Translations under genes and position numbers: made by a program
Assembly: GCA_030620115.1 (NCBI GenBank)
Contig: JAUXFG010000196.1
Span: 1 to 6,398 of the forward strand
DNA: 6,398 bases
Source of the DNA: Candidatus Fermentibacterota bacterium
GTDB lineage: Bacteria > JAFGKV01
Direction of reading: 5' to 3'
Notes under the pieces: model-generated
The model's database searches: none
Told to the model about the DNA's origin: nothing
Seen by the model: the letters and a program-made list of their open reading frames with translations, nothing else
Shown: piece by piece, positions 1 to 6,398 of the stretch
How positions within the stretch are numbered: position 1 is the stretch's first letter
Layout: each line of letters opens with the position of its first letter

Positions 1-42
1 AACCCATCACCCCATCAACCCATTCCCCCATCAACCCATTCC
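1..42. repeat. 16-bp tandem repeat overlapping the 3' end of the Memo gene
   Basis: CCCATCAACCCATTCC occurs twice exactly (11-26 and 27-42), with a degenerate partial unit at 1-10. On the coding strand it reads as GGG-tracts spaced by AAT, TTGAT or TGAT: six tracts of three or more G, a canonical G-quadruplex pattern. The array encodes the last residues of the Memo protein and its TGA stop. Because 16 is not a multiple of 3, one unit is read as Glu-Trp-Val-Asp and the next supplies the stop. Confidence 0.85.
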
Positions 43-1244
43 CGAGACCCCAGCCCCACTGCGGCAAAGGAGACTGCGGATTTTGTGGCTTCCTCGTGCC
101 ATACCTCATAGCCAAGGATCGTGCCCCTTGATTCGGGCAGGATCTCCAAAAGGCATGCCAAGACCGGGAACCCGCAGACATTATACTGATCATTGACCCG
201 TTGTCCTTCGGCCCAGAAATCCGTGACCGATCCGCGACAGAGTGCCGCGAGAAGCTGCTCGTCGTGCGCGCGGAACTCCGGTTCATAGGACCTGCCTGAT
301 CTATCATGGCCGAATTTCGGGCCGACGTGGGACAAGTCCACACCTGCCACTATCAGCGTACGCTCGTCAATCAACGATCGCAGCACATCGAGAAATCGGC
401 CCACCTCTGGAATATCGGAGGGTTTGCCGATCTTCTGGAGCTCTTCGAATGTGCCGAACAGCACAGGAACAATAGGGATGCTCTCGGGCAGAAGGTGGCG
501 CAAGAATAAGACCTGGAACTCGATGGAGTGCTCACTGCGATGGGCGAAGTCGTCGGGCGCCACCAGAGCACCGCCGGCCTCGCGAAGGGCATTTGCCGCG
601 TGTGTATCGGTGGGGAAGCTGCCCAATGGCGTCTCATAGTCTTTGGTGGTGACCGAGAAGATGCCCTCATCGAGCCCGTGACCCGTGCCAAGGATGAGGA
701 TTCGGTTGGGCTTGAGGCCGCGCACTGCGGCATAGGCGTTGCCATAAACGGCTTGTCCTACACTCAGATCGATATGTGGCGCCACCACTGCCCTGATCGC
801 CCCTACCACAGAAGGCAAAGCCGAGCTCGCCCGAGAGACAATCCCTTCCAAGAGAGTATCGAGAGCTTCTCTGTCGGATGGATATGCCGATCCCGAAAGA
901 AACGCCGGTCTGCGGTCAAGCGAGGCGAATTGCGACTTGAGCGCCTGTTTCCCCTCGTGGTACCGGGGCGTTTGGAGCACAAACAGCTCATCCAGCTCCC
1001 TTATCAGCCGCTCCACTTCGCTCAACATGACCAATTGGTTCCCCCTGGCTCGCATCATAGCCGCCTGAAGATCCCGAATCGTATGCGACCCGTCAAAGAA
1101 AGGAAGGAGACCGGCAACTTCGGCTGACAGCAATCCCATGCTCTCTCTCAATCCCAATCCATCCTTGATGGCCAGCACGCGTCGCCCACGCACGCTTGCC
1201 GGTACGAACTGGATATCAGTACGAAGAGGGGGGAGAAGATCCAA
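15..1244 (-). CDS. AmmeMemoRadiSam system protein B (Memo family) with N-terminal helical/winged-helix-like domain
   Basis: This 409-residue protein is predicted to be cytoplasmic, with no signal peptide or membrane segment. Residues about 145-400 are a Memo domain: APHIDL (His157), ILGTGH (His189), EHSIEFQ (Glu238-His239), VDLSH (Asp303-His306) and NVCGFP (Cys357). By family knowledge the two early His and the Cys line a metal site like that of human MEMO1 and extradiol-dioxygenase-like folds; the bacterial reaction is unknown. Residues 1-100 form a separate alpha-helical region resembling the PqqD/winged-helix-like extension common in bacterial protein B. The usual partners, an AMMECR1 protein and a radical SAM protein, are not in the window. 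The start is TTG, chosen because GGAG lies 8 nt upstream inside the end of the preceding gene and the gap to its stop is 3 nt. The last residues, REWVDGGMG, and the TGA stop are encoded by a tandem repeat, so the original C-terminus may have been replaced. The family call is firm; the function is not. Confidence 0.92.
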   Translation of the reverse strand: MDLLPPLRTDIQFVPASVRGRRVLAIKDGLGLRESMGLLSAEVAGLLPFFDGSHTIRDLQAAMMRARGNQLVMLSEVERLIRELDELFVLQTPRYHEGKQALKSQFASLDRRPAFLSGSAYPSDREALDTLLEGIVSRASSALPSVVGAIRAVVAPHIDLSVGQAVYGNAYAAVRGLKPNRILILGTGHGLDEGIFSVTTKDYETPLGSFPTDTHAANALREAGGALVAPDDFAHRSEHSIEFQVLFLRHLLPESIPIVPVLFGTFEELQKIGKPSDIPEVGRFLDVLRSLIDERTLIVAGVDLSHVGPKFGHDRSGRSYEPEFRAHDEQLLAALCRGSVTDFWAEGQRVNDQYNVCGFPVLACLLEILPESRGTILGYEVWHEEATKSAVSFAAVGLGSREWVDGGMG

Positions 1245-2624: not shown

Positions 2625-2631
2625 AACACAT

Positions 2632-2637
2632 CTCCCC
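2632..2637 (-). promoter_or_regulatory. Ribosome binding site GGGGAG for the sigma-54 activator
   Basis: GGGGAG ends 7 nt before the ATG at 2624 and decides the start. Its four G residues are also the last of six G-tracts contributed by the adjoining 16-bp repeat array, so an mRNA structure using them would mask the site. Confidence 0.75.
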
Positions 2638-2680
2638 ATTCCCGCATTCCCCCATTCCCGCATTCCCCCATTCCCGCATT
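2633..2680. repeat. 16-bp tandem repeat, three copies, in the leader of the sigma-54 activator
   Basis: The unit CCCCCATTCCCGCATT is exact at 2649-2664 and 2665-2680, with one mismatch at 2633-2648. On the coding strand this gives six G-tracts (2673-2675, 2665-2669, 2657-2659, 2649-2653, 2641-2643, 2634-2637) with loops of 3 to 5 nt. The last tract is part of the Shine-Dalgarno. Each unit also contains ATGs on the coding strand, which create an in-frame but unlikely start at 2663. Confidence 0.9.
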
Positions 2681-2759
2681 TCGAAATCCCCTCATTCTCC
2701 CATCAGCCATTAGCCATTAGCCATTCGCAATTGGCCATTCTCCTCCCCTCCCCCCTCCC
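2677..2759. repeat. Intergenic module A, copy 1, with five heptads of the AGCCATT type
   Basis: This stretch opens with CATTTCGAAAT, runs through a pyrimidine stretch, then carries heptads at 2705-2739: AGCCATT three times, CGCAATT, and GGCCATT. It ends in a C/T-rich run. It matches 4351-4426 almost base for base; the main differences are one extra heptad here and small changes of one or two bases. Confidence 0.85.
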
Positions 2760-2852
2760 AGATTCTTCGGTCGCCGCACTCCCTCAGAATGACACACATC
2801 CAGCATCAAGCACCCACTGTCATTCTGAGCGACCACAAGGAGCGAAGAATCT
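2760..2852. repeat. Paired inverted element, copy 1 (35-nt arms, 23-nt loop)
   Basis: The left arm is 2760-2794 and the right arm 2818-2852. The outer 10 bp (AGATTCTTCG) pair perfectly and the inner 15 bp (ending CAGAATGACA) pair at 14 of 15, with a mismatched centre. It could fold in DNA or RNA. It resembles dispersed repeats I recall from many environmental bacterial genomes. No U-run follows it on the minus strand, so it is not a standard intrinsic terminator. Confidence 0.85.
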
Positions 2853-3039
2853 CTCCCACATCCTCTCTCCGTCATCTGAACCCCGAAGCCTGAACGCTCT
2901 CCCCCATCCCTCATTCCCTCAATCCCTCAATCCCCCAATCTCCTCTCCCAATCTGTGTAATCTGTAGGTCGCAATCCAGTAATTCCAAATCCTTCCCATT
3001 CCCCAGATTCCAGATTGACAGATTCTAGATTCCTCCCCC
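2853..3039. repeat. Remainder of the 415-bp gap: low-complexity modules
   Basis: In order along the plus strand: a stretch from 2851 shared with 4527-4560 (33 of 34 bases, including CATCCTCTCTCC and TCATCTGAACCCC); three GAACCCC-type heptads at 2878-2898, two of them degenerate; three 8-bp units TCCCTCAA/TCCCCCAA at 2915-2938; a module at 2937-2969 that recurs at 4681-4713; about 35 bp with no recognised repeat; and AGATTNN heptads at 3005-3031. No gene and no convincing promoter were seen here. Confidence 0.75.
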
Positions 3040-4116
3040 CTACAACTCCACGGTGAACACGGAACCCTTCGGCTCGTTTGGACCGGCGAATATCCGGCCG
3101 CCGTGCGCGTCCACCACCATCTTGGAGAAGGCGAGCCCAAGCCCTAGTTGAAAGCCTTCCTTCTTCTTCAGCTCAGCAACCTCATACTTCTCAAAGATCT
3201 TCTCGCGATACTCTTCCGGGATACCGGGGCCTTCATCGAGAACCTGGACTCGAACCGAGGGTTCCTGTTCTTCCGGGTACTCAATGCGTACGGTGACCGT
3301 ACTTCCGGATGGTGTGTACTCCAATGCATTCGAGATCAGGTTGTCGAACACTCGTCGGAATAGATTGCCGTCCAGCGACACCTGTCGCGATTCTTCAGGT
3401 AGATCGATCTCGAGATCTATCCCCCTTGCCTGAGCCACCACGCGCTGACATCCCACCACCGCATCCACGAACCTATTCATGTCGACTTCCAACTGATTCA
3501 AAACGGGTTTGCCGGCCTCCATCTTGGCCAGCATCAACATGTCATTGAGCAACGTATTCAAACGATGCGCCTCGGTCCTCATGGTTTCGATACTCCGCAG
3601 AACTTCGGGATCCGAGAACTTGTGACGCAGCACCTCTGCCACTCCCGAGATGATAGTCAGCGGATTTCTCATATCGTGCGCGATCATACTGGCGAGCTCT
3701 TCTCTGGAGCGAAGATTACGCTCCAGCTTATCATACTGCCCTTTGATGCGCAGCATCGATCGCACACGCGCCCTCAGTTCAAAGCCGCTCACCGGCTTGG
3801 AGATAAAATCATCGGCTCCCGCTTCAATCCCGGGAGCCAGGGCTTGTTTGGTCTCCAGGGCCGTGATCAGTATGACGGGAATATGACGTCTTGCCTCGTC
3901 CGCCTTGATCCTCTTGCAGACCTCAAACCCATCCATGACCGGCAGCATCACATCGAGCAGAATAACGTCCGGCTCGAACCTGCCCAGACATTCGAGAGCA
4001 TCACGTCCGCTGACGGCAAACGCCAAATCATAGTCTTCCTTGAGCAGAAGAGCTTCCAACGTGTGACGGGCACTGGCCTGATCGTCAACAATCAGAACAA
4101 GAGGCTTCTTCTCCAT
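3040..4116 (-). CDS. Soluble REC-histidine kinase (receiver-first hybrid)
   Basis: This 358-residue protein has no membrane segment. The receiver spans about 5-122: Asp11-Asp12, phosphoacceptor Asp55 (ILLDVMLPVMDGFEVC), Thr85 and Lys107 (ISKP). Residues 120-140 look like a charged helical or coiled linker. A HisKA domain follows with His147 in the H-box IAHDMRNPL, then a HATPase_c domain: N-box FDNLISNALEYTP (Asn263), G1 DEGPGIP (294-300), G2 LGLGLAF (324-330) and the end motif GSVFTVEL. All catalytic residues are present, so it should autophosphorylate. The receiver probably tunes the kinase or passes phosphate on. The start at 4116 is chosen because AAAGGAGG, a near-perfect Shine-Dalgarno, sits 5 nt before it; the longer frame to 4206 would translate repeat DNA. 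The TAG stop directly abuts repeat sequence. Its receiver is clearly paralogous to that of the kinase at 4679-6190 (shared DGFEVC, GIEAGADDF and ELRARVRS). The activator gene downstream is the likely partner (inference). Confidence 0.95.
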   Translation of the reverse strand: MEKKPLVLIVDDQASARHTLEALLLKEDYDLAFAVSGRDALECLGRFEPDVILLDVMLPVMDGFEVCKRIKADEARRHIPVILITALETKQALAPGIEAGADDFISKPVSGFELRARVRSMLRIKGQYDKLERNLRSREELASMIAHDMRNPLTIISGVAEVLRHKFSDPEVLRSIETMRTEAHRLNTLLNDMLMLAKMEAGKPVLNQLEVDMNRFVDAVVGCQRVVAQARGIDLEIDLPEESRQVSLDGNLFRRVFDNLISNALEYTPSGSTVTVRIEYPEEQEPSVRVQVLDEGPGIPEEYREKIFEKYEVAELKKKEGFQLGLGLAFSKMVVDAHGGRIFAGPNEPKGSVFTVEL

Positions 4117-4274: not shown

Positions 4275-4353
4275 CGACGTTGAATGTTGGATGTTGGATG
4301 TTCGATGTTCATTCCCCATATTTCCATATTCCAGCAATCCAGCATTCCAGCAT
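4275..4353. repeat. GATGTT heptads and TCCAGCAT octamers
   Basis: Five consecutive heptads occupy 4275-4309: CGACGTT, GAATGTT, GGATGTT twice, CGATGTT. After a short A/T-rich stretch, three octamers follow at 4330-4353: TCCAGCAA then TCCAGCAT twice. Between 4197 and 4274 I see no gene or clear signal apart from a weak 11-bp palindrome at 4221-4231. Confidence 0.8.
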
Positions 4354-4426
4354 TTCGAAATTCCCCTCATTCTCCCATCAGCCATTAGCCATTAGCCATT
4401 GGCCATTCTCCTCCCCTCCCCCGCCC
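4351..4426. repeat. Intergenic module A, copy 2, with four heptads of the AGCCATT type
   Basis: This matches 2677-2759: CATTTCGAAAT, a pyrimidine stretch, AGCCATT three times (4380-4400) and GGCCATT (4401-4407), then a C/T-rich run. Relative to copy 1 it lacks exactly one 7-bp unit. The near-identity is much higher than that between the neighbouring paralogous kinase genes. Confidence 0.85.
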
Positions 4427-4528
4427 AGATTCTTCGGTCGCTCCGCTCCCTCCGAATGACACGTGAGCCCAAACACTCAATGCCAAGCACGCCTATCATT
4501 CTGAGCAACATCAAGGAGCGAAGAATCT
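4427..4528. repeat. Paired inverted element, copy 2 (35-nt arms, 32-nt loop)
   Basis: The left arm is 4427-4461 and the right arm 4494-4528. The ends AGATTCTTCG and CGAAGAATCT pair fully; the loop-side ends pair with a few mismatches (CCGAATGACA against TATCATTCTG). It has the same orientation and position in the module order as copy 1, but its loop differs from copy 1 except for CAAGCAC. Confidence 0.83.
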
Positions 4529-4653
4529 CTCCCACATCCTCTCTCCATCATCTGAACCCCGAACCCCGAACCCCGAACCCTGAACTCTCTCCTCTCCATT
4601 CCCTCATTCCCCAGATTATAGATTATAGATTCTAGATTGACAGATTCTAGATT
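4529..4653. repeat. GAACCCC heptads and AGATTAT heptads between the two kinases
   Basis: The shared 34-bp stretch ending at 4560 leads into GAACCCC heptads at 4554-4588 (three exact, then GAACCCT and GAACTCT). On the coding strand these give four G-tracts (4557-4580) with 3-nt TTC loops, a canonical G-quadruplex pattern. After a pyrimidine stretch, AGATTAT, AGATTAT, AGATTCT, AGATTGA, one spacer base, AGATTCT and AGATT follow at 4613-4653; the second half matches 3012-3031. Confidence 0.8.
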
Positions 4654-4667
4654 CCTCCCCATCCCCC

Positions 4668-4713
4668 AATCTCCTCTCCTAATCTCCTCTCCCAATCTGT
4701 GCAATCTGTGGTT
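4668..4713. repeat. AATCTCCTCTCC module forming the 3' end of the REC-PAS-kinase
   Basis: A 13-bp unit, AATCTCCTCTCC plus one variable base, is repeated in tandem (4668-4680 and 4681-4693). The stretch 4681-4713 matches 2937-2969 with few differences (CAATCTGTG then AATCTGT). Here it is translated on the minus strand as the last residues of the kinase (EPQIAQIGRGD) and provides its stop; at 2937 it is non-coding. Confidence 0.8.
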
Positions 4714-6190
4714 CGGAATCCTCCCTCCCCTGCCTTGGCAGCAGAAGCTCCACCACCACTCCCGGGCCTTCCTTCCTGTTGTAGGCGCGGCAGCTCCCAC
4801 CGATTCCCCAGATCAACGATGAAACCATGGACAGGCCCAAACCCATGCCCGAGGCTTGCCCCGTGAAATGCTTCTCTGCTTGATAATAGGGATACCAGAT
4901 CTGCGCAAGTTGAGCCGGAGACAGGGTGAGCCCATCGTCGCTTACACGGATACGAATGTCTTCCTCAACGCTCGCACACTGCACCTCCAGCGTGGGCGCA
5001 TGCTTTGGATGGAACTTCTTCGCATTTTCACAAAGCTCCGAAAAAATCTGCTCCAGAATCTGAGGCGAAAGCGGAACGTAGATATCGCCGGGAGTCTCGA
5101 TGTATTCGTACGATACCTTGATAGATCCAAGCTGGAGACCCGCCTCGATCTTTCCAACAAGACCGGCAATCTCGCCCAGGCTGCATTGCCCATGACTCGA
5201 CTGCTCAGCAACTTCCTGGTAACGCAATACGGCATCAATGGCCTCTTGGAGGCCTACAGCGCCCTGAAGCGCGGAGGAAAGATATGTTTGTCTCTCCGCC
5301 TCAGACAAGGATTGATCTTCTTCGAGAATCCTAAGATACCCCAACAGCACGCTGAGAGGGGTCCTGAGTTTGTGGCTGATCTGTGCTTGTAACGACCAGA
5401 TCTGTTTGTCAGCCGCCATACGAGCAGTGACATCGTTTAGGTGGACCAGATGCATCCCAGGCAAAAGCTCAGCCACATCAACTTGCAGCCAGAATGTTTC
5501 TGCGGATGACGATTCGGGCCGTACGAGATACCGCGGAGCCTGCGTCTGCCCCCGAGGCTCTGTGGGCCACGCGGTCCACATCTCCCTTGGTTCTTGGCGA
5601 TATCGCCTGCACACTAGCCTCGAGAAAGACCCAGCAATGGTCTCTGCGGTATCCATGGAGAGATCAAGATACCGGCGCGCCTGAGGGTTTGCGTACAGTA
5701 CCTCATCCCGCCCACCCACGATCAGAATTCCATCCTGTGCTCGCTCCACGACCCATTGGAACTTGGCGCGTTCTGCCAGGATATGTCGATACCTGTTGAG
5801 ACGAACGATACTCCGAACCCGAGCGCGCAACTCTGTTCGATCGAAAGGTTTTGTGATGAAGTCATCGGCGCCGGCTTCAATGCCCTTCAGGCGAGAATCC
5901 CGATCATCCAGTGCGGTCACCATGATAATCGGCACTTCAGCATGTTCCGGATCAACCCGCAGCCGTCGGCATACTTCAAAACCATCCATCTTGGGCATCA
6001 TGACGTCCAGGAGAACAAGATCAGGCGTATGCGCAGTCGCCTTGGACAATGCATCAGGCCCGTTCTCAGCGAAGAACAGCTCATAACCCTGCGCACAGAG
6101 TAGCGCTTCCAGGACCTCACGCCCCACAGGCTCGTCATCCACAATCAGGATCCGGGCCTGCTCCCTCTTGGACTCAACACTCACCTTCAT
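4679..6190 (-). CDS. Soluble REC-PAS-histidine kinase with divergent G1 box
   Basis: This 503-residue protein has no signal peptide or membrane segment. The receiver spans about 12-130: Asp18-Asp19, phosphoacceptor Asp62 (LLDVMMPKMDG), Thr92 and Lys114 (ITKP). A PAS domain spans about 143-257 (VVERAQDGILIV, VLYANPQARRYL, LVHLNDVTARMA); its ligand cannot be read from sequence. HisKA follows with His273 in ISHKLRTPL, then HATPase_c with N-box FSELCENAKKFHP (Asn389), G1 SDDGLTL (417-423) and G2 GMGLGL (448-453). In G1 the usual second Gly of DxGxG is Thr, though the rest of the lid is well formed and I recall similar lids in other hybrid kinases, so activity is still likely. The domain ends near Pro485. 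Residues 486-503 are a tail whose last eleven residues come from a repeat that also occurs in the next gap, which also supplies the TAG stop. AGGTG lies 4 nt before the ATG. It is transcribed first of the four and is probably the upstream kinase of the set (inference). Confidence 0.94.
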   Translation of the reverse strand: MKVSVESKREQARILIVDDEPVGREVLEALLCAQGYELFFAENGPDALSKATAHTPDLVLLDVMMPKMDGFEVCRRLRVDPEHAEVPIIMVTALDDRDSRLKGIEAGADDFITKPFDRTELRARVRSIVRLNRYRHILAERAKFQWVVERAQDGILIVGGRDEVLYANPQARRYLDLSMDTAETIAGSFSRLVCRRYRQEPREMWTAWPTEPRGQTQAPRYLVRPESSSAETFWLQVDVAELLPGMHLVHLNDVTARMAADKQIWSLQAQISHKLRTPLSVLLGYLRILEEDQSLSEAERQTYLSSALQGAVGLQEAIDAVLRYQEVAEQSSHGQCSLGEIAGLVGKIEAGLQLGSIKVSYEYIETPGDIYVPLSPQILEQIFSELCENAKKFHPKHAPTLEVQCASVEEDIRIRVSDDGLTLSPAQLAQIWYPYYQAEKHFTGQASGMGLGLSMVSSLIWGIGGSCRAYNRKEGPGVVVELLLPRQGREDSEPQIAQIGRGD

Positions 6191-6261
6191 TACTCACCTG
6201 CTTTCGTCGCCTCCACTACCGGTCCTAACCCGCACTTCTCACCAACCATCCGCTCCGTCAT
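6191..6261. other. Leader of the REC-PAS-kinase gene
   Basis: Apart from the ribosome binding site, no clear -35/-10 or -24/-12 promoter, operator or terminator is visible. This is the only part of the right flank free of tandem repeats, so a promoter for the gene set would most simply lie here or beyond the window. Confidence 0.3.
6194..6199 (-). promoter_or_regulatory. Ribosome binding site AGGTGA for the REC-PAS-kinase
   Basis: AGGTGA lies just before the ATG at 6190 (4 nt after AGGTG). It is a moderate Shine-Dalgarno, but no competing start exists in frame before residue 64, and the receiver begins where expected. Confidence 0.6.
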
Positions 6262-6305
6262 CTGAACCCCGAACCCCGAACCCTGAACCCCGAACCCCCC
6301 CTCCC
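6262..6305. repeat. GAACCCC heptads upstream of the REC-PAS-kinase
   Basis: Five consecutive heptads occupy 6264-6298 (GAACCCC twice, GAACCCT, GAACCCC twice), preceded by TCATCT as in the other two copies, and run into a C-rich stretch to 6305. On the coding strand this gives more than four G-tracts with loops of 1 to 4 nt. Unlike the other gaps, this module lies on the left of the paired inverted element. Confidence 0.85.
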
Positions 6306-6398
6306 AGATTCTTCGGTCGCTCCGCTCCCTCAGAATGACAGGCATTCACACATCCATCTCTGCACCACCACTGTCATTCTGAGCGACTACAGGGAGCG
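6306..6398. repeat. Paired inverted element, copy 3, cut by the window edge
   Basis: The left arm, 6306-6340, is complete (AGATTCTTCG to AGAATGACA). The loop is 6341-6371. The right arm starts at 6372 with TGTCATTCTGAGCGAC and is lost at the window end after 27 nt. It has the same orientation as copies 1 and 2. Confidence 0.82.

Follow-up and report, generated by a model that had tools for sequence, protein, structure and literature searches.

The 16-bp tandem array preceding the gene of a sigma-54 dependent response regulator belongs to a large class of intergenic arrays with units of 7 or 8 bp (or doubled, of 14–16 bp), and most probably lies beside an ordinary Shine–Dalgarno (SD) sequence by chance, not having been selected as a G-quadruplex (G4). 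The window, i.e., the whole analyzed stretch of 6,398 nt, comprises bases 1–6398 of contig C93; the genome is 4.10 Mb long, in 296 contigs.

Array, ribosome-binding site, and gene context

All four genes encoded in the window are on its minus strand. Gene calls and Pfam identify two proteins that combine a receiver with a histidine kinase (6190–4679 and 4116–3040); the regulator itself (1248–2624), with receiver, AAA+, and Fis-type HTH domains (Pfam PF00072, PF00158, and PF02954), which is NtrC/AtoC-like, yet scores under the NCBIfam cut-offs; and a Memo/AmmeMemoRadiSam protein B (15–1244; Pfam PF01875, with TIGR04336 over the cut-off). The gap between the second kinase gene and the regulator gene is 415 nt. 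The possible start codon of Memo, TTG 1244, is four bases from the regulator stop codon at 1248 and has GGAG ahead of it at 1255–1252; judging by this arrangement, Memo is probably translated directly after the regulator, and the coupling of the two proposed in the original prediction is plausible. The last codons of Memo and its stop codon are written in a second G-rich 8/16-bp array (window positions 1–57; TRF), the protein tail REWVDGGMG being this array turned into protein sequence.

The start of the regulator at ATG 2624 is supported by its 57% paralogue, whose own start is at the corresponding position (MSAERRKHLLVIDD against MSLGEKPSILVIDD), and also by the coding scores of the gene-calling script; the start of the mechanically defined open reading frame, 2663, falls inside the array.

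The array occupies positions 2634–2680 of the minus strand, where TRF finds a period of 16 bp with 2.9 copies and 100% matches, and a subperiod of 8 bp with 6.1 copies and 87% matches; the 16-bp unit thus consists of two 8-bp half-units, of the GGGAATGC and GGGGAATG types. From 2675 to 2634, the minus strand reads GGG-AAT-GGGGG-AATGC-GGG-AAT-GGGGG-AATGC-GGG-AAT-GGGG, that is, six runs of 3–5 G each with spacers of 3, 5, 3, 5, and 3 nt. The SD sequence is GGGGAG (2632–2637, minus strand): the last G-tract (2637–2634) and the GGAG core (2635–2632) have two G in common, and the core is separated from ATG 2624 by 7 nt. The original prediction of a 16-bp repeat array that carries six G-runs and overlaps the ribosome-binding site is therefore confirmed. 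The exact 18-mer CCCCATTCCCGCATTCCC has a single site in the genome, in this array.

A perfect tandem array such as this is not random, and its 100% identity fits both recent expansion and maintenance. The chain of G-tracts is not extreme for its setting, as the whole region is G-rich on the minus strand: in simulations of the same 416-nt stretch (2625–3040) with a first-order Markov model, a chain of six or more tracts is seen in 8%, and of four or more in 49%.

G-quadruplex potential of the leader

With six tracts and loops of 3 and 5 nt, the array has the canonical G4 pattern (four or more tracts of at least three G, loops of 1–7 nt), as had been proposed; its G4Hunter score is 1.77. When quadruplexes are allowed, the minimum free energy computed with ViennaRNA changes from −23.5 to −32.4 kcal/mol for the 131-nt leader and from −0.6 to −10.1 kcal/mol for the array alone, i.e., G4 is preferred by about 9 kcal/mol at the array. 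The leader folded conventionally, without quadruplexes, shows nothing unusual (z 0.86). By these models, the G-tracts of the array may well fold into an RNA G4; G4s that depend on K+ are formed in vitro by similar arrays of G-rich heptamers (PMC4692102).

The original prediction had gone further and proposed a cis-regulatory RNA G4, which, by masking the ribosome-binding site, would control how much of the sigma-54 activator and, via coupling, of Memo is made. We consider this unlikely. The folding energies and the behavior of the heptamer relatives in vitro speak for it, as do the position of the last tract on the SD sequence and the repression of translation by G4s near the start: in earlier work cited in PMC11087576, a G4 about 20 bp ahead of the start codon lowered translation. 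The sign of any effect is uncertain, however, since translation rose with a G4 placed 46 bp ahead of the SD sequence (PMC11087576). The array resembles the engineered G4s of bacterial 5′UTRs in having G-tracts upstream of the ribosome-binding site, although the engineered effects, as described in PMC11087576 and the work cited there, were measured on designed constructs, their sign being set by the distance to the SD sequence, whereas here the G4 is predicted. Given the stability of the predicted G4, the last tract on the SD sequence, and an arrangement near the engineered repressive one (as known from work cited in PMC11087576), an effect in the cell is plausible, and the array may possibly influence translation.

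Several observations argue against masking. The four other G4 motifs on the same strand of the window (3–57, 2901–2936, 4557–4580, and 6267–6305) are away from ribosome-binding sites, and a sigma-70 promoter scan found no promoter; the placement and conservation data, given below, point in the same direction. A terminator scan also yielded none, and Rfam covariance models, applied with their gathering scores, did not match the window.

Repeat mosaics and arrays across the genome

The gap ahead of the regulator is a mosaic in which distinct arrays (CCCCATTC, GCCATTA, ATCCCTCA, and AGATTC-like units), with periods of 7, 8, 14, and 16 bp, surround an inverted-repeat element. The remainder of this mosaic (2684–3038; TRF and self-comparison of the window) contains GCCATTA heptamers at 2700–2739, the inverted-repeat element at 2760–2794/2818–2852, ATCCCTCA octamers at 2900–2945, and AGATTC heptamers at 3003–3033. 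The mosaic occurs three times in the window: in the gap and as pieces at 4310–4721 and 6253–6398. Comparison of the gap with the genome gave about 400 first-look candidates, and the 40 of them that were scored yielded at least 60 matches.

The palindromic arm TCATTCTGAG-N(6–24)-GAAGAATC is present 434 times in the genome, vs. 0 with the reversed-pattern control. The arms often form inverted pairs about 35 nt apart; besides the pair in the gap, the window has pairs at 4427–4461/4494–4528 and 6306–6341/6368–6398. The same arm ends, with different and often self-complementary loops, are seen 4–42 times in several genomes of other families (G007, G034, G026, G011, and G037), and arm ends with such loops are absent from the two same-family genomes; the palindromic element is dispersed and patchily shared across genomes. 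To check for a connection with REP-type Y1 transposases, the surroundings of the four such genes of the genome were examined, and no good copy of the inverted-repeat element was found near them; nothing relevant to the palindrome sequence turned up in the literature.

A census of tandem arrays was performed on a sample of about 1.31 Mb (32% of the genome), taken as stretches; the first 20 of these came from contigs with repeat matches, and the densities of arrays and G4 motifs were recomputed without them. Gene calling relied on an ad hoc script that scores codons, hence the start positions are approximate. Most arrays in the sample are intergenic (245 of 300), and the periods peak at 7–8 and 12–16 bp; 213 intergenic arrays have a short period, and only 21 of these 213 contain a G4 motif. 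Outside the repeat-chosen stretches, short-period intergenic arrays number 120 per Mb, or, by extrapolation, ~490 per genome. Short-period arrays within 200 bp of inverted-repeat arms amount to 35%, compared with 13% for random intergenic sequence. AACGCTG and AACATCG, the most frequent families, lack G-runs and outnumber AATGGGGG; given this and the small share of G4-capable arrays, we infer that arrays in this genome grow independently of G4 formation.

The array ahead of the regulator has both traits of the dispersed intergenic 7/8-bp tandem arrays, a short head-to-tail unit and many intergenic copies. Its family is that of the GGGGAATG octamers; the exact pattern of the octamer array is found at 4 places genome-wide and in none (0/192) of the other genomes searched. 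Two distant genomes have their own array families, with 7-bp (AATGGCT and variants) or 8-bp (AATTCACC, AACCATTC) units: G018 (L268–L272) and G012 (L275). AATGGCT is the same unit as that of the GCCATTA arrays at 2700–2739 and 4375–4407 of the window.

The likely origin of the array can be outlined as follows. The lineage would accumulate such arrays in repeat-rich intergenic mosaics, the arrays growing by replication slippage and spreading by copying of mosaic segments; one of them, from the GGGGAATG family, would happen to end at an ordinary SD sequence. Its G-tracts could then shift the initiation of the activator somewhat, presumably with no selected function.

Heptamer repeats of cyanobacteria are known as STRRs. 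Three heptanucleotide repeats are described for Calothrix in work cited in PMC4692102; as with these repeats, several different families form arrays in one genome, but here the families are of 7 and 8 bp and reside inside larger mosaics with an inverted-repeat element. The closest precedents are the G4-forming heptamers GGGNATC and GGGGA(T/C)T of Xanthomonas and Nostoc (PMC4692102). Common features are short tandem units that are rich in G and have A/T-containing spacers, dispersed and mostly intergenic positions, many copies, a canonical G4 motif, and the G strand being sense just after stop codons. Unlike these heptamers, the unit here is 8/16 bp (GGGAATGC + GGGGAATG) and not 7 bp; a minority of arrays here are G4-capable; and the array has G on the sense strand near a start, a position in which most of the Xanthomonas and Nostoc arrays carry it on the non-coding strand (PMC4692102). 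The TAACTGA direct repeats of marine Beggiatoaceae are heptamer arrays as well, many of them directly before start codons, and a translational role has been proposed for them (PMC4679880). Most of these repeats are within several nucleotides of starts (PMC4679880), whereas the arrays here show no enrichment near starts, and the TAACTGA sequence is unrelated to that of the array.

Placement, conservation, and alternative readings

Arrays are not targeted to gene starts: 4 were observed at most 20 nt before a start, vs. 8.6 expected from random placement within their own intergenic regions. A sense-strand G4 motif reaches within 15 nt of the start in 2 of the 865 genes with enough upstream sequence in the sample, the regulator being one of the two, and about 4 are expected at the uniform intergenic rate. 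The best paralogue of the regulator, encoded in the same genome (contig C64, 57% identity), has GGGAGA ahead of its ATG and no G-rich array there; the nearest homologue outside the genome (G032, 50% identity) directly follows a kinase gene, also without an array. In neither of the two same-family genomes does the activator have a close orthologue (best 39%) or the mosaic a match. The test of conservation is weak, as the comparison reaches only distant homologues.

Start-site placement thus shows no enrichment, and, as far as a paralogue and a distant homologue are representative, G4 is not conserved at corresponding starts. Neither the placement nor the two relatives, both of them without the array, indicate selection for G4 at this ribosome-binding site. 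The view of the array as a regulatory device, part of the original prediction, is not supported, given these counts and the mere 21 of 213 arrays that are G4-capable; a regulatory role is rather unlikely, although the non-targeted placement of the class may be compatible with a function of this single copy.

The G/C asymmetry may instead act on DNA or transcription (R-loops, pausing, transcript ends), and not on the ribosome-binding site, which we find very improbable. Among the G/C-asymmetric arrays of the sampled genome that lie at most 50 nt after a stop codon, the G strand is sense in 11 of 12 (binomial P 0.006), matching the bias reported for Xanthomonas and Nostoc, where transcript starts or ends were more frequent at G4-forming repeats than at controls (PMC4692102). 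However, these numbers are small and rest on an ad hoc gene caller, the array discussed here is at a start and not at a stop, and the authors of that study were unable to give the repeats a role (PMC4692102).

The octamers can also be read as a source of start codons. Each 8-bp unit combines a G-tract with an AUG, and copy number could then alter decoy or N-terminally extended initiation. AUGs are indeed present at 2679, 2671, 2663, 2655, 2647, 2639, and 2631; as 8 is not a multiple of 3, they are in different frames, those at 2663 and 2639 being in frame with 2624 and the others out of frame, and the reading frame is open from 2663. Still, there is little to recommend this reading, as the G-runs are 1–2 nt or about 9 nt ahead of the AUGs and seem to be poor fits to the SD consensus, the normal start is placed by the paralogue at the equivalent of 2624, and length variants are not known for the species, represented by one genome. 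A phase-variable translational switch for the sigma-54 activator and the coupled Memo, driven by copy-number changes of octamers that bear both G4 and AUG, is similarly far-fetched.

The chance placement of a class member beside an ordinary SD sequence hence remains our preferred reading. If a natural G4 at the SD sequence did control the sigma-54 activator, this would be a native case of a mechanism for which most examples are engineered constructs. A lineage rich in intergenic G-rich arrays can bring a G4 motif onto a ribosome-binding site fortuitously, and such overlaps should not each be taken as regulation.
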